Assembly: GCA_913047675.1 (NCBI GenBank)
Contig: CAJWTO010000010.1
Span: 1-34,137 of the forward strand
DNA: 34,137 nucleotides
Direction of reading: 5' to 3'
Source: an uncultured Pseudomonadota bacterium
GTDB lineage: Bacteria; Pseudomonadota; Gammaproteobacteria; Ga0077536
Below, in pieces: positions 6,101 to 23,483 of this stretch (the first letter of the stretch is position 1; each line of letters opens with the position of its first letter). The position numbers were made by a program, and so were the translations under genes. The notes beneath the pieces are model-generated. The model was not told the DNA's origin and ran no database searches. It saw only the letters and a program-made list of their open reading frames with translations.

Positions 6101-6547
6101 TTAAGACGAGCCTGTTTGGGAGTCCCATAAACCTTGAGCCTGCTCCCATCCAACAACTGCTCTTGGACTACCGTCATCATTAGTAAACTGCAGAGGTCCC
6201 ATGAACGTCATGTAAAACTGACTCTCCACCGGAAAGTACGTCTTGTCGTGCTGCGCTCCGCAAGATTCGTACCCATAACCCAACTCTAGTGCCGTGGCGC
6301 CACCATCTTCAGTTCCGCCTCTGACCTCCATTTTCCCCTTGGTAAGAAGATACTCACCCGGCCCAACATGGATATGACGATCAAAAGAAGAGCCTTCTGG
6401 ACAGTCAAAGATAGCAGTCCAAGCACCCATCTCAGGTGACGTATGTAACAATTTCCACCGAATCCCTCCTTTCGAAAAGGCATCAGGAAATGGTTGCCAA
6501 CTTATTTCGTCGATCTGAACATAATCTTCCTTAATTTTAGCCTTCAT
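6101..6547 (-). CDS. Cupin-domain protein (ChrR/acetylacetone-dioxygenase-like)
   Basis: A single-domain cupin of 148 residues. I chose the ATG at 6545-6547 (MKAKIKEDYVQIDEISWQPF), because a GGGAGA site lies 7 bases upstream; the longer open frame to 6652 has no such support. Motif 1 is FDRHIHVGPGEYLLTKGKME, which gives the HxH...E metal ligands of the first cupin motif. The second motif is less clear, around GAQHDKTYFPVESQFYM. Such proteins bind Fe or Zn and include dioxygenases and anti-sigma-factor sensors; the substrate cannot be told here. It is convergent with tRNA-Leu and divergent from the lipid locus, so a link to either is not evident. Confidence 0.7.
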   Translation of the reverse strand: MKAKIKEDYVQIDEISWQPFPDAFSKGGIRWKLLHTSPEMGAWTAIFDCPEGSSFDRHIHVGPGEYLLTKGKMEVRGGTEDGGATALELGYGYESCGAQHDKTYFPVESQFYMTFMGPLQFTNDDGSPRAVVGWEQAQGLWDSQTGSS

Positions 6548-6673
6548 TCGAACAATCTCCCTAAATTTATATTCATATAAAGTCATTAATAAACTAAAAC
6601 TAGCACCTCGCACGTCAATATGCGATAAATTTATCGGCAAGTGAAAACGCAATTCAAGTAATAATTTTTAGCA

Positions 6674-6720: not shown

Positions 6721-7863
6721 ATGATAAAAATTGCCGAAGTAAAAACTAAAAAACACTTGAACGATTTCATTAAGGTTCCTTGGTCTATCTATGAGCATGA
6801 TAAAAATTGGGTTCCTCCGTTGATCGTTGAACGAAGGGATGCGCTAAAAGCTAGCCAACCTATTTTCAAGCACTTGGATTGGGCGGGTTGGGTAGCTTAC
6901 GATGAATCAAAACCGATCGCGAGAATTAGTGCTCAAGTTGACCGAGCACATCTCGAATATTATCGAAATACTACAGGTTTCTTTGGAAACTTTGAATCAC
7001 CCAATAACTCTGCAATATCAAAACAACTCTTTCTACTAGCCGAGCAATGGCTATTGAGTAAGGAAATGACTAGGGTAAGAGGTCCTTTTAATTTAAATAT
7101 AAATCAAGAAGTCGGATTGCTAGTCGAAGGTTTTGATACACCACCGTATTTCATGATGACTCATGCAAGAGATTATTACGGTAAGCTTGTAGAAGACTCC
7201 GGTTACGCAAAAGAAATGGATCTGTCTGCTTATTTGATTAGTCCTAAATTCGAACCTCCTAAATTTATGAAAGCGATCCTGAAGCGATTAGAGAGAGATA
7301 TAAGTATTAGTCCGCTGAACAAAAAGGATGTGATGGCAGAATTAGAGACTGTCAGAAACATCTTCAACGACGCTTGGTCTGATAACTGGGGCTTCGTGCC
7401 GTTCGAAAAAGATGAATTTGCTGCCATCGGAAAAGAAATGCTCATGGTAATACCTAACGACTTTATACAAATCGCCCGAATTAATAATGAACCTGTGGCA
7501 TTTATTGTATTACTGCCTAACATTAATGAAGCTATCCAAGACCTAGACGGCAAACTTTTTCCTTTTGGTATATTTAAGCTGATAAAACGACTGAAATTAG
7601 GGTACCCGAAAACTGCACGCATCCCACTCATGGGTGTTAGAAAACGGCTGCAGAATACCAGGTTTGGCCCAGGCTTGGCACTTTCGGTAGTTAATGCGCT
7701 AAGAAAACCAGCAATACGGAAAGGCATAGAGACAGTGGAAATGTCTTGGATCCTCGAAAATAATGCTGGTATGAAAAAAATTATCGATATCCTTGGTGGC
7801 TATCGCTCGAAACACTACCGCGTATACGAAAAGCCACTCACACCTATTTCAACTCACAACTAG
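6721..7863 (+). CDS. GNAT-like N-acyltransferase, probable bacterial ceramide synthase (bCerS-like)
   Basis: A 380-residue soluble protein beginning MIKIAEVKTKKHLNDFIKVPW, then DKNWVPPL, a conserved start in the YghO-like, GNAT-fold family. That family, by recall, includes the Caulobacter bacterial ceramide synthase. ARISAQVD, GFFGNFES, VRGPFNLNIN and GLLVEGFDTPPYFMM are typical segments, and the C-terminal half (about 210-370) resembles an acyltransferase fold. Bacterial ceramide synthase N-acylates the long-chain base (or its oxidised form) with an acyl donor. The spt/acp/reductase/FAAL operon lies 8 kb away in the same locus, which strongly favours this role. It shares an operon with the next two genes (1-bp gap, then overlap). 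Family membership is recalled from sequence character, not from a search. Confidence 0.72.
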   Translation: MIKIAEVKTKKHLNDFIKVPWSIYEHDKNWVPPLIVERRDALKASQPIFKHLDWAGWVAYDESKPIARISAQVDRAHLEYYRNTTGFFGNFESPNNSAISKQLFLLAEQWLLSKEMTRVRGPFNLNINQEVGLLVEGFDTPPYFMMTHARDYYGKLVEDSGYAKEMDLSAYLISPKFEPPKFMKAILKRLERDISISPLNKKDVMAELETVRNIFNDAWSDNWGFVPFEKDEFAAIGKEMLMVIPNDFIQIARINNEPVAFIVLLPNINEAIQDLDGKLFPFGIFKLIKRLKLGYPKTARIPLMGVRKRLQNTRFGPGLALSVVNALRKPAIRKGIETVEMSWILENNAGMKKIIDILGGYRSKHYRVYEKPLTPISTHN

Positions 7864-7864
7864 A

Positions 7865-8662
7865 ATGAGTATTCATAAAATAAAAATACCTTCGGTGATT
7901 CTGGCTGGGGATAGATTAGGCGGAAATAGTTTGGCTCGTATGTTCGGCGTCAAAAATGGAGTTTTAGTCAAGATCCACGGTAAAACCTGCATTCAACGAG
8001 TCTTAGAATCACTGGATCGTTGCGGACACATTTCCGACATGACCATCGTTGGATTAAATGAGCGCAGCAGACTACTAGAAAATTCGCTTCAAAAAGCTAC
8101 TCGTGGCCATAATTGCAAGCGGCTTCCATCCGAGCCAGGGCCTGCCGCAAGTGCGGTAAAAGCTGTTTCGGCCGGAGAACAATATCCCTGCCTACTCACA
8201 ACTGGAGACCATGCACTCCTTCCGTCCGGTACAATATCAGAATTCCTAGAAACAGCACGACATATGAAGGGAGACTTCATCGTTGGCTTGGTCCCATATG
8301 CAAATGTCCAAAAGGCATTCCCCGAGAGCAAGCGGACTCTGTTGAAATTCGCAGAGGGTGTCTTTTGTGGAAGCAACCTATTTCTTATTAAAAACCAAAA
8401 AGGGGTCAGAATCCTAGAGTATTGGCGAAAAGTAGAGACTCTAAGAAAAAAACCCTGGAAAATTTCGCGCAATCTAGGCATTGGATTTCTGATCCGATAT
8501 ATTTTGGGCCGTCTTACCCTCGAGAAGGCACTAAACACAATTTCCAACCATGCCGAAGCGAAGTTACGTCATGCTATCGTCTCGAATCCTCTAGCTGCAA
8601 TAGACATTGACAGCAAAGCTGACTATGACCTTGCCGTCAATTGGTTAACTAATGAAAAATAG
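7865..8662 (+). CDS. MobA-like NTP transferase
   Basis: A 265-residue nucleotidyltransferase-fold protein. The start is the ATG at 7865, one base after the preceding stop; the frame upstream lies inside the previous gene. The N-terminus reads IPSVILAGDRLGGNSLARMFG, a divergent form of the LAGGxSxRMG nucleotide-binding loop. TTGDHALLPSGTISEF contains the GDHxLL metal/nucleotide motif, and IDIDSKADYDLA near the end is typical of MobA/IspD/GlmU-like enzymes. It probably activates a phosphorylated head group or sugar with CTP or GTP; the substrate is not visible. The last 11 bases overlap the hydroxylase gene, so the two are coupled. Confidence 0.72.
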   Translation: MSIHKIKIPSVILAGDRLGGNSLARMFGVKNGVLVKIHGKTCIQRVLESLDRCGHISDMTIVGLNERSRLLENSLQKATRGHNCKRLPSEPGPAASAVKAVSAGEQYPCLLTTGDHALLPSGTISEFLETARHMKGDFIVGLVPYANVQKAFPESKRTLLKFAEGVFCGSNLFLIKNQKGVRILEYWRKVETLRKKPWKISRNLGIGFLIRYILGRLTLEKALNTISNHAEAKLRHAIVSNPLAAIDIDSKADYDLAVNWLTNEK

Positions 8663-9407
8663 TCAAGTAGTCTCAGCCACAAAAAGAAAACTCATCCACA
8701 TCATTGGTAAGCGATTCCTACGACTTATCGATAAAGTTCAAAATCAGTGCTCAATAGTTCCAACATCACCCTTTTTGCCAAATGAGACATTCTCGTGGAT
8801 CTCGGCACTTGAAGAGCAGTTTCCAAAAATAATAAAAGAGTTTGACGAAGTATGGAAAGATCCATCGAAAATTCCAGCATTTCATCAAATGTCTCCCGAT
8901 CAAGCTCGTATTTCGAAAGAAGATTACTGGAAAACATATGCTTTCTTTATATTCGGAAACGCTGTAATAGAAAACTGTAGCAAGTGCTCAGAAACCACAG
9001 AAGTGCTCAATAAGATACCGAATCTTCAAAATGCTTGGTTCTCAATCTTAGCTCCTAAATATCATATACCACCCCATCGAGGACCTACCAAGGCCTTAAT
9101 TAGGTGTCATTTGGGCTTAAAAGTACCCGGTAACGCAAATAGCTGTTGGATAAGAGTAGATAACGAAGTACGAGGATGGTCTGAAGGTCAGTGCATTCTC
9201 TTTGATGATACTTTTGAACATGAAGTACAAAATAACACGTCCGAATATCGAGCCGTCCTTTTTATCGATGTGGAACGCCCCATGAACCGAGTAGGACAAC
9301 TGATAAATACTCTTATCCTAAATATGATGAAAGCAACACGCTATGTAAAAGATCCTCTAAATAATATGAAAAAATGGAATAAAAATTTATCCGAAAAGCA
9401 TAAGTAG
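8652..9407 (+). CDS. Aspartyl/asparaginyl beta-hydroxylase family dioxygenase (LpxO-like)
   Basis: A 251-residue Fe(II)/2-oxoglutarate oxygenase of the AspH/LpxO family. The metal-binding pair is H142 (in PPHRGPTK) and H190 (in DDTFEHEVQN), with R200 ten residues later to hold 2-oxoglutarate. This spacing matches the family, which uses a two-His site without a carboxylate. The C-terminal 40 residues are amphipathic. Bacterial relatives such as LpxO hydroxylate the 2-position of lipid A acyl chains. In this setting a ceramide acyl chain or long-chain base is a reasonable substrate, but that is inference. It overlaps the preceding NTP transferase by 11 bases and ends 113 bases before the next gene. 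Confidence 0.8.
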   Translation: MKNSQVVSATKRKLIHIIGKRFLRLIDKVQNQCSIVPTSPFLPNETFSWISALEEQFPKIIKEFDEVWKDPSKIPAFHQMSPDQARISKEDYWKTYAFFIFGNAVIENCSKCSETTEVLNKIPNLQNAWFSILAPKYHIPPHRGPTKALIRCHLGLKVPGNANSCWIRVDNEVRGWSEGQCILFDDTFEHEVQNNTSEYRAVLFIDVERPMNRVGQLINTLILNMMKATRYVKDPLNNMKKWNKNLSEKHK

Positions 9408-9520
9408 CTATAAAATCAGGGCGTAGCAAACCTGCGACTCGCATCATGGATTACCTAGGCGTCGCATGCTAAAGTGCGTGCACGATTTAAATCCACATGA
9501 CTCAATTCATAAGGTACTAA

Positions 9521-10243
9521 ATGAAAGCAATTATTTTGAGCGCCGGTCAAGGAAAGCGCCTACTACCCCTTACCGCAAAACAACCGAAAGCCGCTATTAA
9601 AATAAAAGGAAAATCCGTGCTCGAGTGGCAACTGCAAGAGTTATCTAAATGCGCCATTGAAGACGTACTTGTCGTTACCGGATTTGGGGCCGATAAAATA
9701 GACTCTATTGTGCGGAAACAAAATTTTGTAACTGCACGAACCCTGTATAACCCATTTTATCTGCAAAGTGATAATCTCGGAACCTGCTGGATCGCTCGGC
9801 ATGAGATGGAGATGCCGTTCATACTCATCAACGGAGACACACTATTTGAAGCCGGTATTGTCAGAGAGTTACTCGGGTCTAAAAACGACAGTAAAATAAC
9901 GCTCGTAACTGATTCAAAAGATATTTACGATGACGATGATATGAAAATCATCCTAGAGAAAGACCACATCTCTAAAATAGGAAAGACAATCGACCGCTCG
10001 AAGGTAGACGCTGAATCTATAGGGATGATGTACTTTAGTGCCAAAGGATCAAGTGCTTTTATAGAGCAACTCAACACCATGATGCGAGCCGATAGCGGGC
10101 TGCAGAAGTGGTATCTTTCTGCAATAAACGCTATCGCTCAATCGCATAAGGTTGCAACCTGCCCAATTGATGGATTGCATTGGTGTGAAATCGACAGCCA
10201 CGAAGATTTGGAGATTGCTGAGGAAAAAGTTGCGACGTGGTAA
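9521..10243 (+). CDS. Phosphocholine/inositol-phosphate cytidylyltransferase-like nucleotidyltransferase
   Basis: A 240-residue enzyme of the sugar/alcohol-phosphate nucleotidyltransferase superfamily. The signature MKAIILSAGQGKRLLPLT gives the G-x-G-x-R loop. ILINGDTLFE carries the metal-binding Asp, and GLHWCEIDSHEDLEIAEE carries the C-terminal Asp. The short length with no hexapeptide-repeat domain, and ALSAGQGKRLLPLT-like plus NPFYLQSDNLGTCWIA-like segments, recall LicC and inositol-1-phosphate cytidylyltransferase. The likely product is a CDP-activated head group (CDP-inositol, CDP-choline or similar), which would feed the CDP-alcohol transferase encoded at 13903. The substrate cannot be read from the sequence. 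Confidence 0.75.
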   Translation: MKAIILSAGQGKRLLPLTAKQPKAAIKIKGKSVLEWQLQELSKCAIEDVLVVTGFGADKIDSIVRKQNFVTARTLYNPFYLQSDNLGTCWIARHEMEMPFILINGDTLFEAGIVRELLGSKNDSKITLVTDSKDIYDDDDMKIILEKDHISKIGKTIDRSKVDAESIGMMYFSAKGSSAFIEQLNTMMRADSGLQKWYLSAINAIAQSHKVATCPIDGLHWCEIDSHEDLEIAEEKVATW

Positions 10244-10253
10244 GTCCTATCAA

Positions 10254-10745
10254 CTATTTTATCATTTTTATCATTTTGACTCTTGAGGTGTTTCCCGCAG
10301 ACCAAGTGCCCGTATCTAAGAAGTACTCAATCACGTCGCTCTCTACACTTTGATTTCCTTTGAGCAATTTCGCCGAGCCAGACAGCTTGACCACGTTATT
10401 TTTCGCGGAATAGTTTAGAATCACCGCCGTTCCACTTACAGTACGCTTTCTGTCACTTCGATACTTGATGTCGGCAGGAGCACCTTGAACTTTGACGAAG
10501 TCCGAGTCGTCAATTCTGCCTTCAACTATTCCACTATCCCCTTTAATAGTCCACGTCCGCGTATTGATTCTCAGCTGACCACTCAACTTAAAACCCTGCT
10601 CGCCAACATTCTGACTGGCTTTCTCTGCGGATATCACAATGGGATCATAGATAGACTCGGTATCCTCTGAGGCACTAGCGGACATTATAACCATACTCAT
10701 TAGGCAACTCGCTCCTAAAATAAGTGTGAGAAAACTAAGTTGCAC
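10254..10745 (-). CDS. lptA: LptA-like periplasmic lipid-bridge protein
   Basis: LptA forms the beta-jellyroll bridge that carries LPS across the periplasm. I start at the GTG at 10743-10745, because a GAGAGGG site lies 6 bases upstream and it yields a signal peptide (MQLSFLTLILGASCL..., cleavage near SASA). The open frame runs on to a TTG at 10790. The mature part shows PIVISAEKASQ, VKVQGAPADIKY, VSGTAVILNYS and VKLSGSAKLLKGNQ, the repeat-like strands of the OstA/LptA domain. The product is 163 residues (E. coli 185). It is divergent from lptF with 78 bases between, and no lptC, lptB or kdsC is nearby. A sphingolipid-dedicated paralogue is my inference. Confidence 0.8.
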   Translation of the reverse strand: MQLSFLTLILGASCLMSMVIMSASASEDTESIYDPIVISAEKASQNVGEQGFKLSGQLRINTRTWTIKGDSGIVEGRIDDSDFVKVQGAPADIKYRSDRKRTVSGTAVILNYSAKNNVVKLSGSAKLLKGNQSVESDVIEYFLDTGTWSAGNTSRVKMIKMIK

Positions 10746-10823
10746 TTGGCGCCCTCTCCAGCGATGATGTTCTTCTAAATTGCTTAACAATGAGTCAGTT
10801 TCCCACGGATTGGTAAATAGAAA

Positions 10824-11879
10824 GTGCTTCTAAATCGTTATCTTATACGCGAAATACTTGTAAATCTAATTTCAGTCATGTTTGTACTGTCTGTTATCTT
10901 TTTTTCCTATAGCCTCACTAGATTAATGACAGATGCCGCTAGTGGCCTGTACAAAATGAGTGAGGTATTAATTTTGAACTGGTTTAAACTCCTGATATCC
11001 GTAGAAGTACTATTACCGCTCGCCCTTTACTTTAGCATCATTTTTGCAATGGCCCGACTAGCTAACAGTAATGAGCTAACCATTTTAAAAAGTGTTGGCT
11101 TGTCAGATCTTAAACTTAAAAAGATTGTTCTCGTGTTTGGTATCTTGGTATCGGTAGTTGTCGGTGCTCTATCTATCTATACTCGACCCTGGGCCTATCA
11201 GCATATTTATGCTATGAAGGAGCGTGCCCAATCATCTTCTGAAGTCGAACGTATTAAAGCGCGCCAATTTTATAGCCTCAATGACGGCAAGCGCGTCGTG
11301 TATATCGAAAAAATTACTGGGCCTAAAAATAGCCTATCAGATATTTTCATAAGGACGAAAGATGGGGAAGATATACAAATCATTACAGCACCGACTGGAA
11401 GTATAGAGCTGTTAACCACTGAAAATATCCACACCCTAACCTTAAATCAAGCTAATATATTTAAGCAATCGTATGAGTCTTCCGATCTCATTGGGAAGTT
11501 TCAAACTCTTATATTGCAACTGCAAGCGTCTAGCGAAATCGATCTTGAGTATAAAGCTAAAGCTGCGAGCACCTCCACATTGGTTGATCAGGACTCACTT
11601 TATGACAAAGCTGAGCTTCAGTGGCGACTTTCGACGCCCATCTCAACCATAGTTCTAGTACTGATAGCACTAATGCTCGTCGATTATAGACCAAGAACTA
11701 GTCGATTTTCGAAATTACCTCTTGCTATAGCGTCGTATGCTATCTACTACAATATTATGACTGTCTCGAAGACTTGGGTGGAACAAGGAGTTTTATCTTA
11801 CGTCTGGATCCCAGCAGTAGTAATAATTTCAGTGGTACTGTTCATCTACTTTATTCACAACAAGCGGACGTCTTTATGA
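10824..11879 (+). CDS. lptF: LptF-type permease of the Lpt exporter
   Basis: LptF and LptG form the membrane part of the LptB2FG ABC exporter. The 351-residue product starts at a GTG (MLLNRYLIREILVNL). It has TM segments near 12-35, 50-80 and 95-120, a periplasmic beta-jellyroll domain (about 135-265), and three more TM segments to the end. NSNELTILKSVGLSDLKL is the cytoplasmic coupling helix of the family, and RWAY/RPWAYQ-type residues follow TM3. The length is close to E. coli LptF (366). The stop overlaps the lptG start as ATGA. No strong ribosome binding site precedes the GTG. In gammaproteobacteria lptF usually neighbours pepA, which is absent here. Confidence 0.9.
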   Translation: MLLNRYLIREILVNLISVMFVLSVIFFSYSLTRLMTDAASGLYKMSEVLILNWFKLLISVEVLLPLALYFSIIFAMARLANSNELTILKSVGLSDLKLKKIVLVFGILVSVVVGALSIYTRPWAYQHIYAMKERAQSSSEVERIKARQFYSLNDGKRVVYIEKITGPKNSLSDIFIRTKDGEDIQIITAPTGSIELLTTENIHTLTLNQANIFKQSYESSDLIGKFQTLILQLQASSEIDLEYKAKAASTSTLVDQDSLYDKAELQWRLSTPISTIVLVLIALMLVDYRPRTSRFSKLPLAIASYAIYYNIMTVSKTWVEQGVLSYVWIPAVVIISVVLFIYFIHNKRTSL

Positions 11880-12940
11880 CTTATATAGTTGGACGATATA
11901 TCTCAACCCTTGTGCTAAAAAATGGCTTATTTGCATTAACTCTATTACTAGTACTATTCAGTATCCTTGGCCTTGTAGAGGCTCTAGAAGATGTCGGGAA
12001 AGGATCGTTTACTGTCGTCAACGCAATATCAGTCATTATACTGGAGGTACCAAATAGAGTACTTGAACTACTTCCAATAAGTATCCTATTGGGATGTGTT
12101 ATGGGACTTGGTGCTTTGGCTAGCAATCAGGAGGTGTCCGCGATGCGTGCATCGGGTTTAGCCGTCATGTCTTTTTCTAAGTTAATAGTTTATGTGACCT
12201 TAACTATCTCTGTATTAGCAGTTCTTGCGCAGAACTATGTAGTCCCCTCGACCGAACAACAAGCTCAAAGAATCAAAGCATATACATTAGAACAGACAAA
12301 CTACACTGATGATGGTTTTTGGAGCAAAAAAAATAATCAATTGATCAGGATTGAAGCATTTGCTTCCGATAGTATGGTCGGTGCACTAGAAATCTACGAA
12401 CTTTCTCAATCTGGTAATATCCTCAGAGCCATAACAGCTGAAAATGCGCAGATCCATTCGAACGGGCTATGGGAGCTGAAAAATGTTACAGAAACGAAGC
12501 TAAATCCTAGCGACCCTCCCACTAAGAGAGTCTTACCGTCTTTAACATGGAAAAGCTTTTTCAACTCTGATCAACTAAGTGCCTTAGTCACTCCTCCGCG
12601 CGCATTGTCGACGTTCGATCTAATTAAATACATCAGGGCAAATGAAAATGATGGCGTGGGCACTCGGACACATGAGCTAGTTTTGTGGCAGCGACTAGCC
12701 GTTCCTCTAATGCTAGTTGCCATGGCTTTAATAGGCGTTCCTATCGCGCTATCATCTGTCCAATTCCGTTCAACTAGCTCAAGGAGTCTTCTGGCTGGAG
12801 CCATCGGGATTATTTTTTATCTGCTTCAACAGATTTCAGGCCACTTAGCGACACTGCTCGAACTAAGTCCGGCTATGTCTGTCTTGGGACCTCCAATCAT
12901 AATCCTCTTGCTTGCTATTCGATATACTAGAAGAATATAA
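11876..12940 (+). CDS. lptG: LptG-type permease of the Lpt exporter
   Basis: Partner of LptF. I take the ATG at 11876 (MTYIVGRYISTLVLKNG), which overlaps the lptF stop; the longer open frame lies inside lptF. The product has 354 residues (E. coli 360). TM1-3 occupy residues 10-120. The coupling helix reads ASNQEVSAMRASGLAVM, a periplasmic jellyroll covers about 125-260, and TM4-6 contain QRLAVPLMLVAMALIGVPIAL and a final hydrophobic stretch ending in Arg-Arg. The ATPase LptB must come from elsewhere in the genome. Its position inside a sphingolipid locus suggests a specialised cargo, but it could also be the only LPS exporter. Confidence 0.9.
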   Translation: MTYIVGRYISTLVLKNGLFALTLLLVLFSILGLVEALEDVGKGSFTVVNAISVIILEVPNRVLELLPISILLGCVMGLGALASNQEVSAMRASGLAVMSFSKLIVYVTLTISVLAVLAQNYVVPSTEQQAQRIKAYTLEQTNYTDDGFWSKKNNQLIRIEAFASDSMVGALEIYELSQSGNILRAITAENAQIHSNGLWELKNVTETKLNPSDPPTKRVLPSLTWKSFFNSDQLSALVTPPRALSTFDLIKYIRANENDGVGTRTHELVLWQRLAVPLMLVAMALIGVPIALSSVQFRSTSSRSLLAGAIGIIFYLLQQISGHLATLLELSPAMSVLGPPIIILLLAIRYTRRI

Positions 12941-12963
12941 CTTACTATTACTAGCTATAAAAA

Positions 12964-13818
12964 CTACCAGGAATGTCTTGTAAGTTCCTTTGTTATCGAA
13001 GAACCGAAAACCTTAAGCCGCGCTATAACCTCCCAGTCACTAACTCCGGACTTAATTTCGAATAATCTATATGATGCAGGCGCATGTCCTGCCACATTGG
13101 AAGCTGAGGCAGTGGCGAATACTTTAGTGCATTCATTCGCAGCATAAATTTTATTTTGATGCACGTGCCCATGCAAAACCATCTGAACATTTTGCTGTTT
13201 CAGCAAATAAGAGAGTAAAGTTGCATCTCTCAACGACTTGCGCTTCTTGCACATACTGGGGACCGGCGGGTGATGCAAGAAAACACACTGGAAGGTATCA
13301 GAACTTGCTTCTAAAATAGATTTCAATTTTTCTAGCTGCTCCCTTCCCAACAAACCTCTAGCAGACCAAAACGGCTCAGCCTGAGCGGAGCAGAGTCCAA
13401 TAAAAGTAATTCCTTGATACTGAAAAACACTCGGGAATCCCGTACCTTTCTCACGTTCCTCGAAAAGATATGAACTCCAATATCTCTGGATTAGTTGATA
13501 TGACTCTCGCTGGTAACAGTCGTGATTACCAGGAACTAAAATTACTTTGCATATACTGGCAAGTTCATCAAGCCAATCTTTCGCCTGTATAATTTCTGGC
13601 TCCGTTCCTATTTGTACCAAATCTCCGGTGCATATAATCAAATCAGGAGCTTCAGATCGAATATCTTTCACAAGGAGATCTAATTGTGATCTAAGGTGAT
13701 GCTTCTGCCTACGTGACCAAGAAATTGCACCAAGAGAACGTTTGTTGAATAAAAACCTACCTGCAGCAAAACTAGGCAGGCTAGTTAAGTGAGGATCGGT
13801 TAAATGGATAATCCGCAT
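12964..13818 (-). CDS. Calcineurin-like metallophosphoesterase
   Basis: A 284-residue cytoplasmic enzyme with all five motifs of the dinuclear metallophosphoesterase fold: DPH (D8, H10), GD (D66), GNHD (N98-D100), LHHPP and GHVH. The closest general type is the class III phosphodiesterase (CpdA-like) group, which includes enzymes acting on phosphodiesters and CDP- or UDP-linked lipids. It lies between lptG and the CDP-alcohol transferase on the opposite strand, convergent with lptG (23 bases) and divergent from the transferase (84 bases). A role in removing a phosphate from a lipid intermediate is possible but unproven; a cyclic-nucleotide phosphodiesterase is the alternative. Confidence 0.82.
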   Translation of the reverse strand: MRIIHLTDPHLTSLPSFAAGRFLFNKRSLGAISWSRRQKHHLRSQLDLLVKDIRSEAPDLIICTGDLVQIGTEPEIIQAKDWLDELASICKVILVPGNHDCYQRESYQLIQRYWSSYLFEEREKGTGFPSVFQYQGITFIGLCSAQAEPFWSARGLLGREQLEKLKSILEASSDTFQCVFLHHPPVPSMCKKRKSLRDATLLSYLLKQQNVQMVLHGHVHQNKIYAANECTKVFATASASNVAGHAPASYRLFEIKSGVSDWEVIARLKVFGSSITKELTRHSW

Positions 13819-13902
13819 ATGTAATTAATCCCTCATTTTGCCCATACCACAAGAACTCACTATACTGCATGCCTATTTGTTTTTTTAGTACGAGATTCGA
13901 TT

Positions 13903-15087
13903 ATGTCCCAATCTGCCACAATAGTCTCCGATAACTCTACGGTCTTGTGGGGACTTAAGTCTGCGGATCGAATCCAGAAACAATTAGCTTCTATAAATAT
14001 CCCATTATCCTCTGAATGCTCGCCTGAAGAAAATCCGGAGGGCTCGGTATTATTAATCGACTCAAACTTTATGTTCGACACTCATACTATTGAAAATTTC
14101 GTCGAGTCCAATTCTGAATTACTGATTTGCACCGACACACATATCATCGCGGCTCTCAAATGTGACATTGGAAAAATCGAGCAAAATAAACAGACGATTG
14201 GTTCTACCGCGTCGCCCCAAATTATAGGTAATAGAGCAGTCGGACTCCAGCAATATAATGATAAACTCAGACGATCAAAGCCTCCGTTACTAAAGCATAT
14301 CCCAAGTTTTTCCGTCAAGGATCTGGAATCTCTGCTGTACGGGAATTCTTACAAAGGAATAACTGATTTTGTGACCAAGTGGTGGTGGCCGCGTCCTGCA
14401 AAAAAAATAGTCAGGTTATGTGTGAAGTACAGCATCACACCAAATATGGTAACCATAGTTGGGGCATTGCTAATGCTGTTTGCACTCGTATGTTTTGCGG
14501 AAGGGTTATTCGTGTTCGGACTTATCAGTGGTTGGATCATGACTTTACTGGATACGGTTGACGGTAAATTAGCACGTGTCACAGAGCGTACTAGTAAAAC
14601 AGGACACGTTTTAGATCATGGTATGGATATTATTCACCCACCAATATGGTACTTTTATTGGGGCGTCGGTTTGTCAGGAGCCACTTCTTTTTTTGGCTAT
14701 AGTCTTTTTGACCTCAGCTTGATAATGGTGTGCGCATACATAGGGGGGCGCCTCGCGGAAGGATTATTCGAAGGTCTAGGAAACTGTTCGCTATTCGCGT
14801 GGAGGCCGGCCGATGCATATTTTAGATTATTCGTTGCGCGACGCAATCCATGCTTAGTGATTCTTACGTTGGCTATAATACTGGGTCAACCACCTTTAGG
14901 GTTTATCGGTGTGGTAGTGTGGACCTTGATCTGTACAGTCCTACTTTTTTTTAGACTGGCCTACGCGGTCTTTGTGAGATTGAGCAAAGGTCAGCTAAAA
15001 TCTTGGCTGCAAGATCCCCGCGCTGCAGAGCTATCCCCTGTAGCCTTTAAAACGTTTTCTGAAACCAAACAAGCCTATGACTCCTAA
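13903..15087 (+). CDS. CDP-alcohol phosphatidyltransferase with degenerate N-terminal nucleotidyltransferase-like region
   Basis: A 394-residue membrane enzyme. The complete CDP-alcohol phosphotransferase motif is present: D217, D220-G221, A224-R225, G234, D238 and D242. The ITPNMVTIVGALL start of the first TM lies at 178-190, with about five further TM segments up to residue 365. The first 130 residues resemble a decayed nucleotidyltransferase domain, as in IPCT-DIPPS fusions, but lack a GxGxR loop. The enzyme joins a CDP-activated partner to an alcohol. In this locus it plausibly attaches the phospho-head group to ceramide, using the nucleotidyltransferases next door. The stop overlaps the next start by 11 bases. 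Confidence 0.87.
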   Translation: MSQSATIVSDNSTVLWGLKSADRIQKQLASINIPLSSECSPEENPEGSVLLIDSNFMFDTHTIENFVESNSELLICTDTHIIAALKCDIGKIEQNKQTIGSTASPQIIGNRAVGLQQYNDKLRRSKPPLLKHIPSFSVKDLESLLYGNSYKGITDFVTKWWWPRPAKKIVRLCVKYSITPNMVTIVGALLMLFALVCFAEGLFVFGLISGWIMTLLDTVDGKLARVTERTSKTGHVLDHGMDIIHPPIWYFYWGVGLSGATSFFGYSLFDLSLIMVCAYIGGRLAEGLFEGLGNCSLFAWRPADAYFRLFVARRNPCLVILTLAIILGQPPLGFIGVVVWTLICTVLLFFRLAYAVFVRLSKGQLKSWLQDPRAAELSPVAFKTFSETKQAYDS

Positions 15088-15973
15088 TAACCAACTCCTT
15101 GAAGATTGGTGGCCTGATGAGTTCCTAGCGGCAATAATAGAAAAATATCGTGATAATGTCGAAGCTGTAATACTTTATGGTTCATGGCTTCGTGGAAAAC
15201 GCGATACACTGCCAGACTTCTACGTTATTTTCACCGACTACAACCAACTGTCATCTCTGTGGCAAAAAGTAGCTAATCGATTACTCGAGCCAAATGTATA
15301 TCAACTAAGCCTTTCAAAACGAAACGCACAATGTAACGCTAAATATGCAACTATCTCTCTAAAGCAACTTGTAAAAAAAACAACAACAGGATTCCATCCT
15401 TATATATGGGCGCGTTTCAGCCAACCCTCAAGTATTCTTTATACGAAAAATGAAAAAGCTCGGAATGCTTTGGATACGCTTATTGGGTCGTCAGAAAAAC
15501 GAATGATGAGAGAGGCATTAGGTATGTCTCCCAAGTCATTCACTAGTAGACAACTATGGGAAACGGCGCTAACTCTCACTTATGGAGTCGAGCTAAGGGC
15601 GGAAAGTAAGGATAAAATAATGCTAATAGTGGAGCAACATCAAGACTACTTTGAGTCGAAAGTTGCCGAGCACTCAGACACTTTAGAGCTGTCCGAAACA
15701 GGAAATAATGAATGGACTTTCGAATGCTCTGACAAATATCGTCTAAAAACTAAATTACGATGGAAGATCCGAAGGATAATTGGAGTCTTTTTATCGATAG
15801 CCCGTCTAATGAAAGCAACAACTACATTTAACCAGCCTCTCGAATATTTGCTTTGGAAAATAGAAAGACATACTGGGATCAAAGAAAATGCTACTGCATT
15901 ACAACTTAAATATCCGCTGATCTTCTCATGGCCCCTTATCTGGAAAATTTTTCGAAGAGGGGGGTTCAAGTAG
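15077..15973 (+). CDS. Tam41-like nucleotidyltransferase (phosphatidate cytidylyltransferase family)
   Basis: A 298-residue protein with a minimal nucleotidyltransferase motif, VILYGSWLRGKRDTLPDFYVIFTDY (residues 24-48, shown in parts: LYGSW, LRGK, PDFYVIF). Downstream it has HPYIWARFSQPSSILY and LWETALTLTYGVELRAE, segments that recall the Tam41 family, which makes CDP-diacylglycerol in mitochondria and some bacteria. The usual second catalytic Asp position reads Tyr (DFY), so activity may be altered. The C-terminus has a basic helix and LEYLLWKIERHTG. It is coupled to the CDP-alcohol transferase by an 11-base overlap, so it may activate a lipid phosphate (phosphatidate or ceramide phosphate) for it. 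The family call is from recalled sequence character. Confidence 0.62.
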   Translation: MTPNNQLLEDWWPDEFLAAIIEKYRDNVEAVILYGSWLRGKRDTLPDFYVIFTDYNQLSSLWQKVANRLLEPNVYQLSLSKRNAQCNAKYATISLKQLVKKTTTGFHPYIWARFSQPSSILYTKNEKARNALDTLIGSSEKRMMREALGMSPKSFTSRQLWETALTLTYGVELRAESKDKIMLIVEQHQDYFESKVAEHSDTLELSETGNNEWTFECSDKYRLKTKLRWKIRRIIGVFLSIARLMKATTTFNQPLEYLLWKIERHTGIKENATALQLKYPLIFSWPLIWKIFRRGGFK

Positions 15974-16005
15974 TATCCTGTAAAATCAACCTCCTCCTCT
16001 AGTAG

Positions 16006-17184
16006 TCAACTATTTTTAATCGCCTCGAAGGCATCAATTATGGCTCTTATTTGTTCCTTACTATGCGCCGCGGTCACACTGCAACGGATCAAACTTCCGC
16101 CATCTGGGGCTGCTGGCGGTAATATTAGATTTGTATAAACTCCTTTATTAAATAAATTCTGCCAATAGGTAAGAGCAACTTCTCTGTCTTCAAAAGGAAT
16201 TCCGATCACAGGACTAACGTCTGTCCCTATTTGAAATCCAAGTTGCGACAATCCAGAATGTAAGAGCTTTGCATTTGACCAAACTGTTTCTCGCAATTCG
16301 GGACAATTTTTAATCTTTTTTAAAGCCTGTCTAGTCGTCGCTATAACTGATGGAGACGGCGATGCTGTAAAAATATAAGGTCTGCTCGCGTAACGAATTA
16401 GACTTAATTCTGGGTGATTACTTACGCAAAAACCCCCGATCGAACCAAGACTTTTGCTGAAGGTCCCAACGATAAAATCTACCTCATCACTTACACCTTG
16501 ATCTTCGGCCAAGCCACGACCATTTTCACCATATAGCCCAAGTGAATGAGCCTCATCGACCATCAAGTAACTTCCAAATTCGTTTTTGACATCTACATAT
16601 TCTTTTAACGGAGCACAGTCACCTCTAACACTATAGAGTCCCTCTACAACAATAAGAGCGTCTTTACCTGCCTCACCTAATCTGCTAAGCCTCTTACGCA
16701 GGCCTTCTGGGTCATTATGCTTAAACCTATATATTTTCGCACCACTCATTCGACACCCGTCAAAGAGACTAGCATGTCCTTCGGAATCAATAAGTACTGA
16801 GTCCTCAGTATTGAGAAGTGCAGTTAGCATTCCAATATTAGCCGAGTAACCAGTCGAAAAAACCATCCCATGGGAGCAATCAAAGAATTCTGCTATCTCT
16901 GTCTCTAAATCTAGATGCTGCTGATACGTGCCGTTAGCCATACGAGATCCAGTAGTACCTGTACCGGCCTCAACTAGGGCCTGCTGTCCTGCAGCCACGC
17001 AATCAGGATCAAACGTCAGACCTAAATAATTATTGGTACCTGCCATTATCTTCGGTTGGCCGCCAATTATCGCTACAGAGGCAGAAATGACTTCACTAAT
17101 AATAGTACCAGTGGGATTGATTGGAATTTCCATCAGCGCCTGCTCTAATACTCGCGCCTGAGAAAATTTTTCGAATAAGCTCAT
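16006..17184 (-). CDS. spt: Serine palmitoyltransferase-type alpha-oxoamine synthase
   Basis: This PLP enzyme condenses L-serine with an acyl thioester to give 3-ketosphinganine, the first step of sphingolipid synthesis. The product has 392 residues. PLP contacts are H137 (SEGHAS), D210-E-A-H213, and the Schiff-base K244 in GTFSKSLGSIGGF. GTFSKS and RPYIFTASPSPS are the forms seen in serine palmitoyltransferases rather than in BioF or Kbl. TNNYLGLT and GTGTTGSRMANGTYQQHLDLE are general alpha-oxoamine synthase motifs. The start overlaps the ACP stop (ATGA), which implies acyl-ACP as donor. It is the last gene of the operon and converges with the Tam41-like gene. Confidence 0.9.
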   Translation of the reverse strand: MSLFEKFSQARVLEQALMEIPINPTGTIISEVISASVAIIGGQPKIMAGTNNYLGLTFDPDCVAAGQQALVEAGTGTTGSRMANGTYQQHLDLETEIAEFFDCSHGMVFSTGYSANIGMLTALLNTEDSVLIDSEGHASLFDGCRMSGAKIYRFKHNDPEGLRKRLSRLGEAGKDALIVVEGLYSVRGDCAPLKEYVDVKNEFGSYLMVDEAHSLGLYGENGRGLAEDQGVSDEVDFIVGTFSKSLGSIGGFCVSNHPELSLIRYASRPYIFTASPSPSVIATTRQALKKIKNCPELRETVWSNAKLLHSGLSQLGFQIGTDVSPVIGIPFEDREVALTYWQNLFNKGVYTNLILPPAAPDGGSLIRCSVTAAHSKEQIRAIIDAFEAIKNS

Positions 17185-17432
17185 GAAGATTTACCATCAT
17201 TAATTTTCAAAATAGTTTCTGCGAGATCCCCAACTGTATTCACATAAGAAAGAGCTTCCTCATCGATAACTATATCAAAATCATCTTCGACCTCGCATAG
17301 GTACTCAATGACCTGAATTGACTCCAAGCCAGCATCACCGACCAGCGCAGTCTCTTTATCAAAGTTATCGACACTAGCAACTAAACCCTCAAGGAGTTCA
17401 ATTAGTCGAGTCACAATTTTTGAATGTGTCAT
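17181..17432 (-). CDS. Dedicated acyl carrier protein of the sphingolipid operon
   Basis: An 83-residue acidic carrier protein. The phosphopantetheine site is S38 in GLESIQVIEYL; the usual Asp before the Ser is Glu here. Helix II continues with CEVEDDFDIVIDEEAL, typical of ACPs. It lies between the reductase and spt genes, with a 32-base gap upstream and a 4-base overlap downstream. By analogy with the Caulobacter ceramide genes it would carry the acyl chain loaded by the acyl-AMP ligase and hand it to serine palmitoyltransferase. Confidence 0.92.
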   Translation of the reverse strand: MTHSKIVTRLIELLEGLVASVDNFDKETALVGDAGLESIQVIEYLCEVEDDFDIVIDEEALSYVNTVGDLAETILKINDGKSS

Positions 17433-17464
17433 CTAATTCTATCACCGATATTTTATTAAATTTT

Positions 17465-18367
17465 TTAAAGAGTTCTTCGCATACCCTGCTGAAGATTTAC
17501 TCGCGGTTTCCAGTCACATATCTCACTAATCTTAGCATTATCACAAACCCAAGCCTTTTCCGAAAGTTCCCTGACTTTACCAGGCGAAAGCATAGGCAGA
17601 TATCCAAAGACAGACGCAAGCAGCATATTTATTTTCGCGCAACCAATTAAGATAACGTGCGGCAAGCGTATCGCTACAGTCACTCCGCGAGGTCTTACAG
17701 ACTTAACGATCTCACTCCATAGATAGCCACCCTCTTTGCCGTCATGAACCGTCATTTTCCGACTCTTAAAAGCCGATGACGACCTAACCACCGCACAAAC
17801 CGCTCTTGCTAAATCATCGACATGCAGTAAGGATAACCTTTGATCTTTTGGTCCAATAATTAATGCAATACCTTTATCCATCAGTTTAAACAAAGGTCTT
17901 AACTCAGTATCGGACGCGCCATAGACTGCCGGCGGACGCAGAATACACCATTTCAAACCTTTTATACTTTCAAGAATGATTTCACCAAGATATTTAGTAT
18001 TTGCATAGTCAGAAAGATGCGGCCGTTCCGCTGCCAATGAAGATATGAGCAACAAACGACCTCCAGATTTTGCCAAAGCCTCGCCAAATACCCTTAGACC
18101 CGCAACATTTGCTTCGAAGAAATCTTTTGACCGCGCGCCTCGGACGCTACCAGCGCAATAAACCACGAGGTCACATCCAGACGTCAGCCAGTTAATTTTC
18201 TCTGAATCAGTAAGTGAACCTTCGACACTAGAACAGCTTTTGAGGATATTAGCGTTTATCCCTCGGTTTTCCCTAGTATATACGGTAACCGTGTGACCAG
18301 AAGAAACCAAAAATTGTTGCAACTGACGCCCGATAAATCCGGTTCCGCCAGTTAAAACAATGTGCAA
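17465..18367 (-). CDS. NAD-dependent epimerase/reductase family protein, probable ceramide reductase (CerR-like)
   Basis: A 300-residue extended short-chain dehydrogenase. TGGTGFIGRQL at residues 6-16 is the Rossmann nucleotide loop, LLLISSLAAE holds the catalytic Ser, and Y121-x3-K125 (YANTK) is the catalytic pair. VYGASDTELRP and LLHVDDLARAV follow as in the extended family. In Caulobacter a homologous gene in the same position reduces the 3-keto group of the oxidised ceramide or long-chain base, so the same role is likely here. It starts 14 bases after the FAAL stop and precedes the ACP by 32 bases, in one operon. Confidence 0.83.
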   Translation of the reverse strand: MHIVLTGGTGFIGRQLQQFLVSSGHTVTVYTRENRGINANILKSCSSVEGSLTDSEKINWLTSGCDLVVYCAGSVRGARSKDFFEANVAGLRVFGEALAKSGGRLLLISSLAAERPHLSDYANTKYLGEIILESIKGLKWCILRPPAVYGASDTELRPLFKLMDKGIALIIGPKDQRLSLLHVDDLARAVCAVVRSSSAFKSRKMTVHDGKEGGYLWSEIVKSVRPRGVTVAIRLPHVILIGCAKINMLLASVFGYLPMLSPGKVRELSEKAWVCDNAKISEICDWKPRVNLQQGMRRTL

Positions 18368-18381
18368 CTTTCTAGCCTATA

Positions 18382-20160
18382 TCAAGCGTTGGCGCTTATA
18401 ACCTGTGTATCGTTGTCAACAACTTCTAAGCGCGCTAAAAAGTCTTGTTTCGCTTTTGAACGCGAAAGTTTTCCCGAAGAGGTTCTAGGAAGAGTCCTAG
18501 GGGGTACAAGATCTATATGACAGGCCATTCCAAAATTCTTCGATATCAAACCAGACAGTTCATTAATTAAGCTTCGCACTTTTGCTGGATTCGACTCTCT
18601 CGACTCCACTACCATCACAACTTGATCAGAGCCCGCCTCATCAGCGAAAGAAAACGCAGAAACGTTACCGAACCGAACTCCCGGCAGCGTCTCAGCCAAA
18701 TACTCTAGATCATGCGGCCAAATATTACGTCCATTGACGATAATCACATCCTTACGACGTGCAGTAACTATGACGTTATCACCAACTCGATACCCTATAT
18801 CACCAGTATCTAACCAGCCCTCCTTAGAAAGTGATTCATCAGTGGCGGTAGGATTTTGAAAATACCCAGTCATGACACTGGGCCCTCTCAAGCATATACG
18901 ACCACACTGGTAATCCGGCAGATCACCTCCAGCGTCATCTCGAATCGCCATTTCAAAACTTGGCAAAATTTTCCCACAGTCAACGAAGGTTAGAGAATTA
19001 AGCCCATCCACATCCTTATCATCTAGCGGTTTGACGAGACCTTCTCTCGACATACTATCTTTATCAACCTGAATTGAAGTTATGCCCACATCGAGTTCTT
19101 CAAAACTAATAGCTAACGCGCACTCAGCCATCCCGTAGCACGCGACAAAAGCCTTGGCATCGAAATTCGCAGCTTTCAGAACATGCGCAAATTGTCTAAG
19201 CGGCTCAGGATGAATCCTTTCCGCTCCGACACAGGCAACTCTCCAGGAACTCAGATCATATCGATCTTGATCAGTCAGACGCAGGCGTTTTGCACACAAC
19301 GCATAGCCAAACGGCGGACTCGAAGAAATCGTCCCACGATTTTGAGATATCAGCTTCAACCACAAACGTGGCCGCATACCGAATGTGCGCGGACTTAAGT
19401 AATCAGCTGAGAGCTGGCTGCCAAGGGGCAATAAAACAAACGCCACCAAACCCATATCATGGTACAAAGGCAACCAAGAAACCATCCTGTCGCGTTCACT
19501 TATTTTTAGCCCATGCACTGCAATATCACGTAAATTTGTCATCACAGCTTTTTGAGATATTTCTACTCCGCGAGGAAACCTCGTGCTGCCTGAGGTGTAT
19601 TGCAAATACGCAATATCATTTTCATCTAAGGGTTGCATCGGGATATTGGTCTTACTCAAAGAATCAAATTCTTCGGGAGTGCCAGCTTTAACTAAATTTA
19701 ATCGCTCTACGGCCTGCTTAAGGAAACCGATATGAGATTCCGGAGCAACAGCCAAGTCAGCCCCGCAGCTATCTAACATCCGTTCCAGCTGCTCTACATA
19801 GGCTTTTCGAGCACCTATCTGAAATCCTGCGGGTAACGCTACCGGAATGTAACCTGCATACTGACAAGCAAAAAAGAATCTGTGAAACATCGGATCAGTT
19901 TCAGCCACGATGGCAACTCGTGTACCGCGTCTACAACCCAACCCTAAGAGCTTGCCCGCAAGTAATTTCGCTTCTATACGTAATTCTTTGTAACTAAGAA
20001 CGCTCGACAGGTCTCCACGCCCATCGTAGAAATTGTAACCTGTATCTCCTTTCGCAGCGTACTCAAGCGCTTCAGTCAGAGTATTAAATGACGCATTTCT
20101 CAATGGTAATGCACTATTTAATGGCGTAACTTGCATGGGAATCTGATTATTTTTATTCAA
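18382..20160 (-). CDS. Fatty acyl-AMP ligase / acyl-ACP synthetase
   Basis: A 592-residue adenylate-forming enzyme that activates a fatty acid with ATP and loads it on an ACP. Motifs in order: YLQYTSGSTRFPRGVEIS (A3 loop), SWLPLYHDMGLV (FAAL/FACL A4), YGMAECALAIS (A5), GWLDTGDIGYRVG (A7), ARRKDVIIVNGRNIWPHDLE (A8) and PRTSSGKLSRSKAK (A10 with the catalytic Lys). The HDMGLV and GRNIWPHDLE forms are typical of the fatty acyl-AMP ligase branch. The start is the TTG at 20158-20160, since GGAG lies 5 bases upstream; the ATG eight codons later lacks a site. It is the first gene of the sphingolipid operon. Confidence 0.93.
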   Translation of the reverse strand: MNKNNQIPMQVTPLNSALPLRNASFNTLTEALEYAAKGDTGYNFYDGRGDLSSVLSYKELRIEAKLLAGKLLGLGCRRGTRVAIVAETDPMFHRFFFACQYAGYIPVALPAGFQIGARKAYVEQLERMLDSCGADLAVAPESHIGFLKQAVERLNLVKAGTPEEFDSLSKTNIPMQPLDENDIAYLQYTSGSTRFPRGVEISQKAVMTNLRDIAVHGLKISERDRMVSWLPLYHDMGLVAFVLLPLGSQLSADYLSPRTFGMRPRLWLKLISQNRGTISSSPPFGYALCAKRLRLTDQDRYDLSSWRVACVGAERIHPEPLRQFAHVLKAANFDAKAFVACYGMAECALAISFEELDVGITSIQVDKDSMSREGLVKPLDDKDVDGLNSLTFVDCGKILPSFEMAIRDDAGGDLPDYQCGRICLRGPSVMTGYFQNPTATDESLSKEGWLDTGDIGYRVGDNVIVTARRKDVIIVNGRNIWPHDLEYLAETLPGVRFGNVSAFSFADEAGSDQVVMVVESRESNPAKVRSLINELSGLISKNFGMACHIDLVPPRTLPRTSSGKLSRSKAKQDFLARLEVVDNDTQVISANA

Positions 20161-20474: not shown

Positions 20475-21920
20475 TTAGTCAAAAATTCCCCATAGGTACC
20501 AACTATCTAAGACACCTAATTCTTTATATACCCAGACACGGCGTCCACAAGCAGTGGATGCTATAAAATAATCTCTAGCAATTATATTGCTTTCCCACCA
20601 ATTAGTTAAAACACGCTCACGCTCTGATTTAATCATTAATACACCTTGATACTCCGGCCATTGATTGGTAACCGAAAGTTTTACGGGTTTTTTAACTAAC
20701 CATAGTGGCCTTTCAGGGTGATAGTTAGAACGAGGACTTAATCGATAGCTACTAATACTTTTTCGAGAATAGCTATCTTCAGGCTCATAAGAAAAATCTT
20801 CTTTTAAAAAATAAATAGCATCCTCCCCTAACCTTCTCTTTAGTCCGGAAACCAGACTTTCGTAGCCTGTAATCTTCTCTCCTTTGAATTTACTACCAAA
20901 AAAATCCATTCTAGTACTCAAATCTTTCGGCACATCAAACACTTTTAATCTAATAGAAGATAAATACCTACCTGCTAATTTCCGTTTCAATATATAGCTG
21001 ACCAATGATTTTATGATTGACTCTCGACTCGAACTATCGTCACAACATATAGATAAAAAATCTCGATGGTTGTCATTACCTTCTAGCCGCCAAATTAATC
21101 GAGAGGGCATACTTTGTCTTCGGAATAAATAAAGGCTTAATTCGCGCAAAAGATTCTGGGCTGCATGTGTTACTGATTTAATTTCAATCACTTCATTGGG
21201 GAAACAGAAAGTGGATTCAAAAAATTCTCTTGGAGTAAACTCTTCCACGTACTCCGGCTTATCGCCAAACAAGCAATCTAACATATCTACAAATTCGGAC
21301 GACAATCTTTCTCTCAATCCAATCCGAGGGAGACGTCTACAGTCTCCTAAATTTCGTATGCCTAAATCTTTAAGATTCTTTTTCTCTTGATAGCTAATCA
21401 ATAACGCGGCAACAGAAGTCATGGATAACACTTTTTTTAAATCCGCCTTATCTACTATGACTAAATTAGGCTTATCTTTACAAAGCATAACAGCAGCGGA
21501 AGGTGTCGGAGCGACAGCAAATTCAGGCCTATAACCTAAGGATTTCAACTCGGCCACCATCTGCTCCATAAGACTCTCGATCCCGCTGAATAATTTCAGA
21601 CTTCCCCTGACTTCAAGTAAAAGTCCTTGATAGCCTACCTTTGACATTCTCGGGGTAAATTTTAATGCCCAGTCACACAGAGATTCTAAAGCGAAGTACT
21701 CTACTTCTTGGTTTCGCTTTAAAAGCTTTACATGTTCATTTATATAAAACGACTGTACAGACATTCCTGGCTTTATACCTAATGCCTGAGCTTGGGAGTT
21801 GGCTGCCTCAACTGTAATAATTTCTTTGATCTTTGTGACTGAAGCATACGGCTGCTTATCAAGTATATCGTCTACCAAAACCTCGATTGAAAAGTAGGGG
21901 AAATATAAATAAACCCACAA
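20475..21920 (-). CDS. imuB: ImuB, Y-family polymerase-like mutagenesis protein
   Basis: ImuB is the catalytically dead Y-family-like hub of the ImuA-ImuB-DnaE2 mutasome in SOS mutagenesis. The product has 481 residues from the TTG at 21918-21920. It begins MWVYLYFPYFSIEVL, the usual ImuB start. GYQGLLLEVRGSLKLFSG and FAVAPTPSAAVMLCK fit the palm/fingers part, and GRRVWVYKE, WYLWGIFD and a WW-x-ARDYF-like segment fit the C-terminal tail. The TTG has poor ribosome binding site spacing. The ATG that overlaps the imuA stop (22022-22024) leads into this frame only if one base is added to the A9 tract at 21959-21967, so the start region is doubtful. Confidence 0.85.
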   Translation of the reverse strand: MWVYLYFPYFSIEVLVDDILDKQPYASVTKIKEIITVEAANSQAQALGIKPGMSVQSFYINEHVKLLKRNQEVEYFALESLCDWALKFTPRMSKVGYQGLLLEVRGSLKLFSGIESLMEQMVAELKSLGYRPEFAVAPTPSAAVMLCKDKPNLVIVDKADLKKVLSMTSVAALLISYQEKKNLKDLGIRNLGDCRRLPRIGLRERLSSEFVDMLDCLFGDKPEYVEEFTPREFFESTFCFPNEVIEIKSVTHAAQNLLRELSLYLFRRQSMPSRLIWRLEGNDNHRDFLSICCDDSSSRESIIKSLVSYILKRKLAGRYLSSIRLKVFDVPKDLSTRMDFFGSKFKGEKITGYESLVSGLKRRLGEDAIYFLKEDFSYEPEDSYSRKSISSYRLSPRSNYHPERPLWLVKKPVKLSVTNQWPEYQGVLMIKSERERVLTNWWESNIIARDYFIASTACGRRVWVYKELGVLDSWYLWGIFD

Positions 21921-22020
21921 ATCCTCTGCGCTTTCGATAAACTGTGGACAGTTGACTCTTTTTTTTTAGTATCAGACGACAAATTATTTTTTGTCGAAGA
22001 AACTACTAATGGATCAAAAT

Positions 22021-23358: not shown

Positions 23359-23483
23359 CGCATATCAGACAAAATTGTGGATAGTCAATATGATAAACTA
23401 TAGTTACATCAGTGCTTTGCGCTATAATAGTAAAGTTAGTAGCCTATTTGGCAAATCTTGAACAAACAACACTCCCAAATCCT

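Follow-up and report, generated by a model that had tools for sequence, protein, structure and literature searches.

Ceramide phosphoglycerates are known from Caulobacter crescentus, where the CC_1152-CC_1161 region makes ceramide (di)phosphoglycerate (CPG and CPG2) and encodes a second LptF/LptG pair (PMC11324152, PMC12275187). CC_1153 is required for CPG2, of the two phosphoglycerates only the second depends on CpgA (PMC12275187), and with its anionic sphingolipids Caulobacter survives without lipopolysaccharide (LPS) and becomes polymyxin-sensitive (PMC12275187, PMC11324152). Potential sphingolipid producers have been reported from about 40 phyla (PMC11334938). Here we analyzed a 34,137 nt (34 kb) stretch, the window, which is part of one contig of an uncultured gammaproteobacterium, and within it a locus of 14 genes at 6721-20160. 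The locus as a whole probably makes and exports a phosphorylated ceramide, a reading that we rate at a probability of roughly 0.7. Ceramide loci in Gammaproteobacteria are already known, and the novelty implied by the initial annotation of this locus went too far: Escherichia coli B/BL21 (PMC9386255), Azotobacter vinelandii and Pseudomonas luteola (PMC11324152) were published before. What is new is a predicted CPG-type locus that lacks a kinase and is conserved in six genera of the same family. The initial annotation missed the absence of the ceramide kinase from the locus and from the whole assembly.

Ceramide genes and layout of the locus

Five ceramide genes had been proposed for this region, and the complete set was confirmed by sequence similarity:

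6721-7863, plus strand: bCerS, bacterial ceramide synthase (orthologue of CC_1154 and E. coli yghO), 45% identical to E. coli YghO over 376 aa
16006-17184, minus strand: serine palmitoyltransferase SPT (orthologue of CC_1162), NCBIfam NF047599, 576.8 bits (cut-off 500)
17181-17432, minus strand: AcpR, specialized acyl carrier protein (ACP; orthologue of CC_1163), Pfam PP-binding, 29.8 bits
17465-18367, minus strand: CerR-type short-chain dehydrogenase/reductase (orthologue of CC_1164), Pfam Epimerase, 85.4 bits
18382-20160, minus strand: AasR, fatty acyl-AMP ligase (FAAL; orthologue of CC_1165), NF006624, 731.7 bits (cut-off 600)

SPT stayed below the cut-offs of the NCBIfam models for bioF (318 vs 426 bits) and glycine C-acetyltransferase (312 vs 460). 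Among PDB entries, bacterial SPTs are closest to it (402 bits vs 227 for Kbl). In a maximum-likelihood tree of 37 sequences it falls into a ten-sequence clade of the family (100/100), which is nested in a 100/99 group of gammaproteobacterial SPTs and the Diaphorobacter SPT. E. coli BioF and Kbl lie outside the SPT clade, their exact placement being unsure on long outgroup branches. The cut-offs and the tree thus place the protein with the SPTs, away from BioF and Kbl.

In the E. coli cluster the place of the bCerS gene is occupied by yghO, and the identity to YghO spans the whole length of the window protein, which is 35-65% identical to 21 locus orthologues and 41% identical to the bCerS of a Caulobacter-type genome (see below). 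Nothing in these comparisons contradicts its place in the bCerS clade. Searches of Pfam and NCBIfam gave no match for bCerS, the libraries returning no curated bCerS model, and a PDB search found no relative at a useful E-value. The AcpR translation contains the attachment motif GLESI, and acpR lies directly upstream of spt, which it adjoins in other loci too, with the acyl-ACP synthetase gene aasR (18382-20160) in the same locus. ACP and CerR are encoded between SPT and FAAL in the order seen in the E. coli cluster; CerR is 36-38% identical to its counterparts in the E. coli and P. veronii clusters and 36-47% to more distant loci generally.

Between bCerS and SPT the initial annotation had counted seven lipid-type genes. 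Nine are present, and the description was too modest: most of them correspond to genes that serve the phosphoglycerate head group or Lpt export in the Caulobacter locus. Seven of the nine are orthologues from the CC_1152-CC_1161 region (CpgD, CC_1153, CpgA, CpgC, CC_1158, LptF2 and LptG2); the others encode an OlsC/LpxO-like hydroxylase and an LptA-like protein. Judging by the translations, the reading frames listed from 7793 and 11774 likely start at ATG 7865 and ATG 11876, respectively.

The locus was compared with 18 loci from other Pseudomonadota genomes, named plasmids and the family itself; plasmid searches served as the source of the named loci and carry no claim of transfer. Two alphaproteobacterial-looking genomes show the order flippase-FAAL-CerR-ACP-SPT-CpgC-kinase-CpgA-metallophosphoesterase (MPE)-HIT-LptF-LptG-bCerS-nucleotidyltransferase 1 (NTase1), followed by CpgD, which is the CC_1166-to-CC_1152 order and is exact in G387 (genomes, genera and loci are given by our handles G, g and L where needed). 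Moreover, the CpgD of G387 has G12, R16, T88, N90, T93, N110, G111, M147, K161, S170 and W201 at the published numbers (PMC13228409). On the grounds of this order and of the CpgD residues in one of them, we call both genomes Caulobacter-type. Published domain notes for CC_1153, CC_1158, CC_1159 and CC_1161 agree with the same orthologue mapping, and the Caulobacter-like gene order noted in the initial annotation was borne out by the Caulobacter-type loci.

One flank of the locus consists of a tRNA-Leu and a cupin gene, the other of imuB-imuA-lexA-dgkA-glnS. That it might be decaying or misbinned, and without a product, could be suspected from the host draft genome (2.15 Mb in 138 contigs, 88% complete). 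However, all reading frames of the locus genes are intact, the imuB-to-glnS flank is common to same-genus contigs from independent sources, and same-genus loci retain the identical gene order at only 39-82% protein identity, which makes a relic or contaminant highly improbable. The order recurs in other genera of the family. On balance this appears to be a chromosomal locus for phosphosphingolipids, of the same kind as Caulobacter CC_1152-CC_1168, that has been passed down within a single family of uncultured Gammaproteobacteria. When 398 genomes were drawn evenly from the phylum, 36 carried SPT, only three of them from the same class besides the window's own. Close relatives on record are the uncultured proteobacterium AG-390-I23, and three metagenome-assembled genomes (MAGs), of which one is UBA4457 and the others carry the label uncultured Gammaproteobacteria; from such isolate names we would guess at a marine origin of the lineage.

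Two neighborhoods were observed alongside. The imuB-imuA-lexA mutagenesis genes (20475-23291) directly adjoin the locus, an arrangement kept in the genus, and a ChrR-type cupin gene (6101-6652; 74-80% identity) lies beside bCerS in most of the family.

Head-group genes and the ceramide kinase

The genes assigned to the head group and to modification of the lipid are the following:

7865-8662, plus strand: NTase1, MobA/CofC-like nucleotidyltransferase (orthologue of CC_1153), Pfam NTP_transf_3, placed by position and alignment with Caulobacter-type loci
8652-9407, plus strand: Asp/Arg beta-hydroxylase family protein, OlsC/LpxO-like, Pfam Asp_Arg_Hydrox, 169 bits; OlsC model 205 bits, below its cut-off of 450
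9521-10243, plus strand: NTase2, CpgD-type CTP:phosphoglycerate cytidylyltransferase (orthologue of CC_1152), 10 of 11 CpgD active-site residues kept
12964-13818, minus strand: metallophosphoesterase MPE (orthologue of CC_1158), Pfam Metallophos, 71.2 bits, and position in Caulobacter-type loci
13903-15087, plus strand: CDP-alcohol phosphotransferase CpgA (orthologue of CC_1159), motif DxxDGxxAR(x8)GxxxDxxxD intact
15077-15973, plus strand: CpgC, Tam41-like nucleotidyltransferase (orthologue of CC_1161), Pfam Tam41, 32.6 bits (cut-off 24)

Missing from this set is the ceramide kinase CpgB. Six-frame searches of the assemblies with two profiles, DAGK_cat and a 17-sequence profile of locus kinases, gave no match in any of the 15 SPT-bearing genomes of the family outside genus g10, the window's assembly included. 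Six of these 15 are at least 95% complete, and in the positive genomes G014, G020, G387 and G139 the 17-sequence profile reached E-values below 1e-70. CpgC is kept in the kinase-lacking loci. Outside the family, the kinase lies within the locus in all 14 CpgC-bearing loci examined (the JS425, Roseomonas and Diaphorobacter plasmids and 11 phylum-wide genomes), usually adjoining CpgC, and genus g10 has a separate locus type with CpgB in it. Ten of the 15 kinase-lacking genomes were placed in the SPT tree, all in one clade, which fits a single loss of CpgB in the family. Absence of the kinase with retention of CpgC sets the kinase step apart from activation, a natural experiment on the order of CPG synthesis.

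We propose that AasR charges AcpR with a fatty acid, which SPT would condense with serine, and that bCerS and CerR would finish the ceramide. The OlsC-like protein would hydroxylate this lipid, likely at position 2 of an acyl chain. As the usual kinase CpgB is missing, the most likely enzyme to phosphorylate the ceramide would be the housekeeping DgkA:

23412-23864, plus strand: DgkA, prokaryotic diacylglycerol kinase, Pfam DAGK_prokar, 95.3 bits

CpgC would then activate ceramide-1-phosphate with CTP for attachment of a glycerate or phosphoglycerate head group, and CpgD would form the CDP-glycerate that CpgA may use for the second phosphoglycerate. Every lipid product named here is a prediction from gene content.

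DgkA was found in 15 of 15 kinase-lacking SPT-bearing genomes and in neither of the two CpgB-bearing g10 genomes, and E. coli diacylglycerol kinase is a standard reagent for quantifying ceramide (PMC3779446). For both reasons DgkA is our first, if tentative, choice for the missing step, with a chance that we place a little below even. Similarly short of an even chance is the wider proposal that the family makes phosphoglycerate ceramides without a CpgB-type kinase, either through recruitment of the integral-membrane DgkA or through direct CDP-alcohol transfer bypassing ceramide-1-phosphate. If true, either would constitute a second bacterial route to phosphosphingolipids.

The residues of CpgD named in its crystal structures, including those binding CTP and 2-phosphoglycerate (PMC13228409), could be read directly from the window protein, the sole exception being T88, a backbone-only contact, which is replaced by S (S83 in the window protein). 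The CpgA motif is unbroken in 15 of 15 aligned members. CpgC shares 22-46% identity with 23 other members and is encoded beside SPT; Y34-G35-S36 and D47, the GS...D nucleotidyltransferase site, are invariant in all 24. Its AlphaFold model matched Tam41 (7ecd, with CTP) at a Foldseek E-value of 1e-7 and a Z score of 15.5, the next family reaching 9.3. Tam41 was recovered by Pfam and fold comparison alone, as PDB searches with a CpgC-alignment profile and with the single sequence gave no Tam41 match. CpgC is thereby predicted to be a Tam41-type CDP-lipid synthase. A CDP-diacylglycerol-synthase domain had already been noted in CC_1161 (PMC11324152), so this result supports a published suggestion and is no discovery; a literature search on Tam41 and bacterial ceramide returned nothing relevant.

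Several observations weigh against the proposed CPG route. The dgkA gene lies next to lexA and is ordinary in Gammaproteobacteria, which makes its presence weak evidence, and the genomes compared are related; DgkA also occurs in four of eight SPT-negative family members (Fisher p 0.008, kinship not corrected for). The CpgC model is of moderate confidence (mean pLDDT 66.6). The conserved Lys of the NTase1 nucleotide-binding loop is replaced by G, S or N in genera g1, g4, g5, g6 and g7, all kinase-lacking, and retained in g2 and g10 (G008 of g4 was read by eye); given this loss in five genera, one CPG2 step may differ. Furthermore, the loci of G008 (L035) and G006 (L036) lack both CpgA and CpgD while keeping CpgC, and would make only CPG, as if the first phosphoglycerate alone were added.

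Absence of a CpgB-type kinase from 15 of 15 genomes, most of which keep a CpgA with intact motif and a CpgD with intact active site, could also mean that ceramide-1-phosphate is never made. CpgA or CpgC would then act on ceramide directly, for example by transferring phosphoglycerate from CDP-glycerate to the C1 hydroxyl. The alteration of NTase1 in the same lineages points the same way. Eukaryotic choline/ethanolamine phosphotransferases, from the enzyme family of CpgA, build head groups by direct transfer, which offers a parallel, and CpgA matches them weakly. However, the G006 and G008 loci, without CpgA, CpgD and kinase, still keep CpgC, which weakened direct transfer by CpgA as a general answer, and Caulobacter needs CpgA only at the second phosphoglycerate (PMC12275187). 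We consider this kinase-free route unlikely. Somewhat less likely still is that ceramide is made and the Caulobacter head-group genes are re-purposed for another final lipid, for instance one with a different phospho-alcohol head group. The missing kinase, the lost NTase1 Lys and the added hydroxylase and LptA-like genes favor such a change.

Lpt export genes and LPS

Three genes of the locus encode candidate export proteins:

10254-10790, minus strand: LptA-like periplasmic protein, Pfam LptD_N/LptA, 36.2 bits; TIGR03002, 50.8 bits, below its cut-off of 71.7
10824-11879, plus strand: LptF2 (orthologue of CC_1156), TIGR04407, 273.8 bits (cut-off 230)
11876-12940, plus strand: LptG2 (orthologue of CC_1155), TIGR04408, 283.1 bits (cut-off 240)

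The LptA-like gene is present in most loci of the family. In addition to the LptF/LptG pair of the locus, other contigs of the window's genome carry two more genes of this family. At least three LptF/LptG family members above cut-off were found in 18 of 18 SPT-positive relatives vs 1 of 22 SPT-negative ones, and this tracking of copy number with SPT supports a dedicated sphingolipid exporter. LptD was single in each of the 12 genomes checked. In the proposed scheme, LptF2/LptG2 and the LptA-like protein would carry ceramide (di)phosphoglycerate out by way of the one LptD, shared with LPS. A dedicated extractor in the inner membrane that delivers to a shared exit has been proposed for Caulobacter (PMC11324152) and fits the gene counts found here.

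LpxC and LpxK are present in the window's genome, and LpxB was not found in this incomplete assembly. Persistence of LPS genes suggests that the locus product is added to LPS and does not replace it. LpxC had no match in G014 and G020 of genus g10 or in G028 (94-98% complete), which may reflect either an assembly gap or a different deacetylase. Replacement of LPS by sphingolipids, suggested by the LpxC gap in the two SPT-bearing genomes of one genus, was dropped as a candidate because LpxB, LpxK and LptD are present there, as they are in G028. With LPS and the locus in one lineage, and LptF/LptG doubled where SPT occurs, a dedicated sphingolipid exporter becomes testable by comparative genomics.

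Comparison with described ceramide loci

The closest counterpart is the C. crescentus CC_1152-CC_1168 locus (PMC11324152, PMC12275187, PMC10331486), with which the window shares orthologues of aasR, cerR, acpR, spt, cpgC, cpgA, CC_1158, lptF2, lptG2, cerS, CC_1153 and cpgD, for the most part with matching neighbors. Unlike the Caulobacter locus, that of the window has no CpgB, and neither a flippase nor a HIT gene was found in the loci of its genus. The window adds the OlsC/LpxO-like hydroxylase, its NTase1 is without the conserved Lys, and it has an LptA-like gene where the Caulobacter locus has LptC2.

The E. coli B / ygh cluster (PMC9386255; L027) shares the five ceramide genes and LptF/LptG with the window, at 36-54% identity for bCerS, FAAL, CerR, ACP and SPT, but has no match to CpgA, CpgC or CpgD. 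A. vinelandii and P. luteola, compared by their description only (PMC11324152), likewise carry a contiguous ceramide, CPG2 and Lpt cluster in Gammaproteobacteria; theirs is without orthologues of CC_1158, CC_1166, CC_1167 and CC_1168, and a kinase loss is unreported for it. Among the other loci, the Diaphorobacter plasmid locus (L080, at 15752-16960) and L095 each have a second CDP-alcohol phosphotransferase, the former also a non-ribosomal peptide synthetase and a P450. The clusters of the Pseudomonas sp. JS425 plasmid pPNP1 (L078) and of a Roseomonas marmotae plasmid (L079) retain, unlike the window locus, an acylglycerol/diacylglycerol-kinase-type CpgB beside CpgC. Both share the CpgA, CpgC, CpgD, MPE and LptF/G families with the window, and the JS425 cluster has the hydroxylase in common with it as well.

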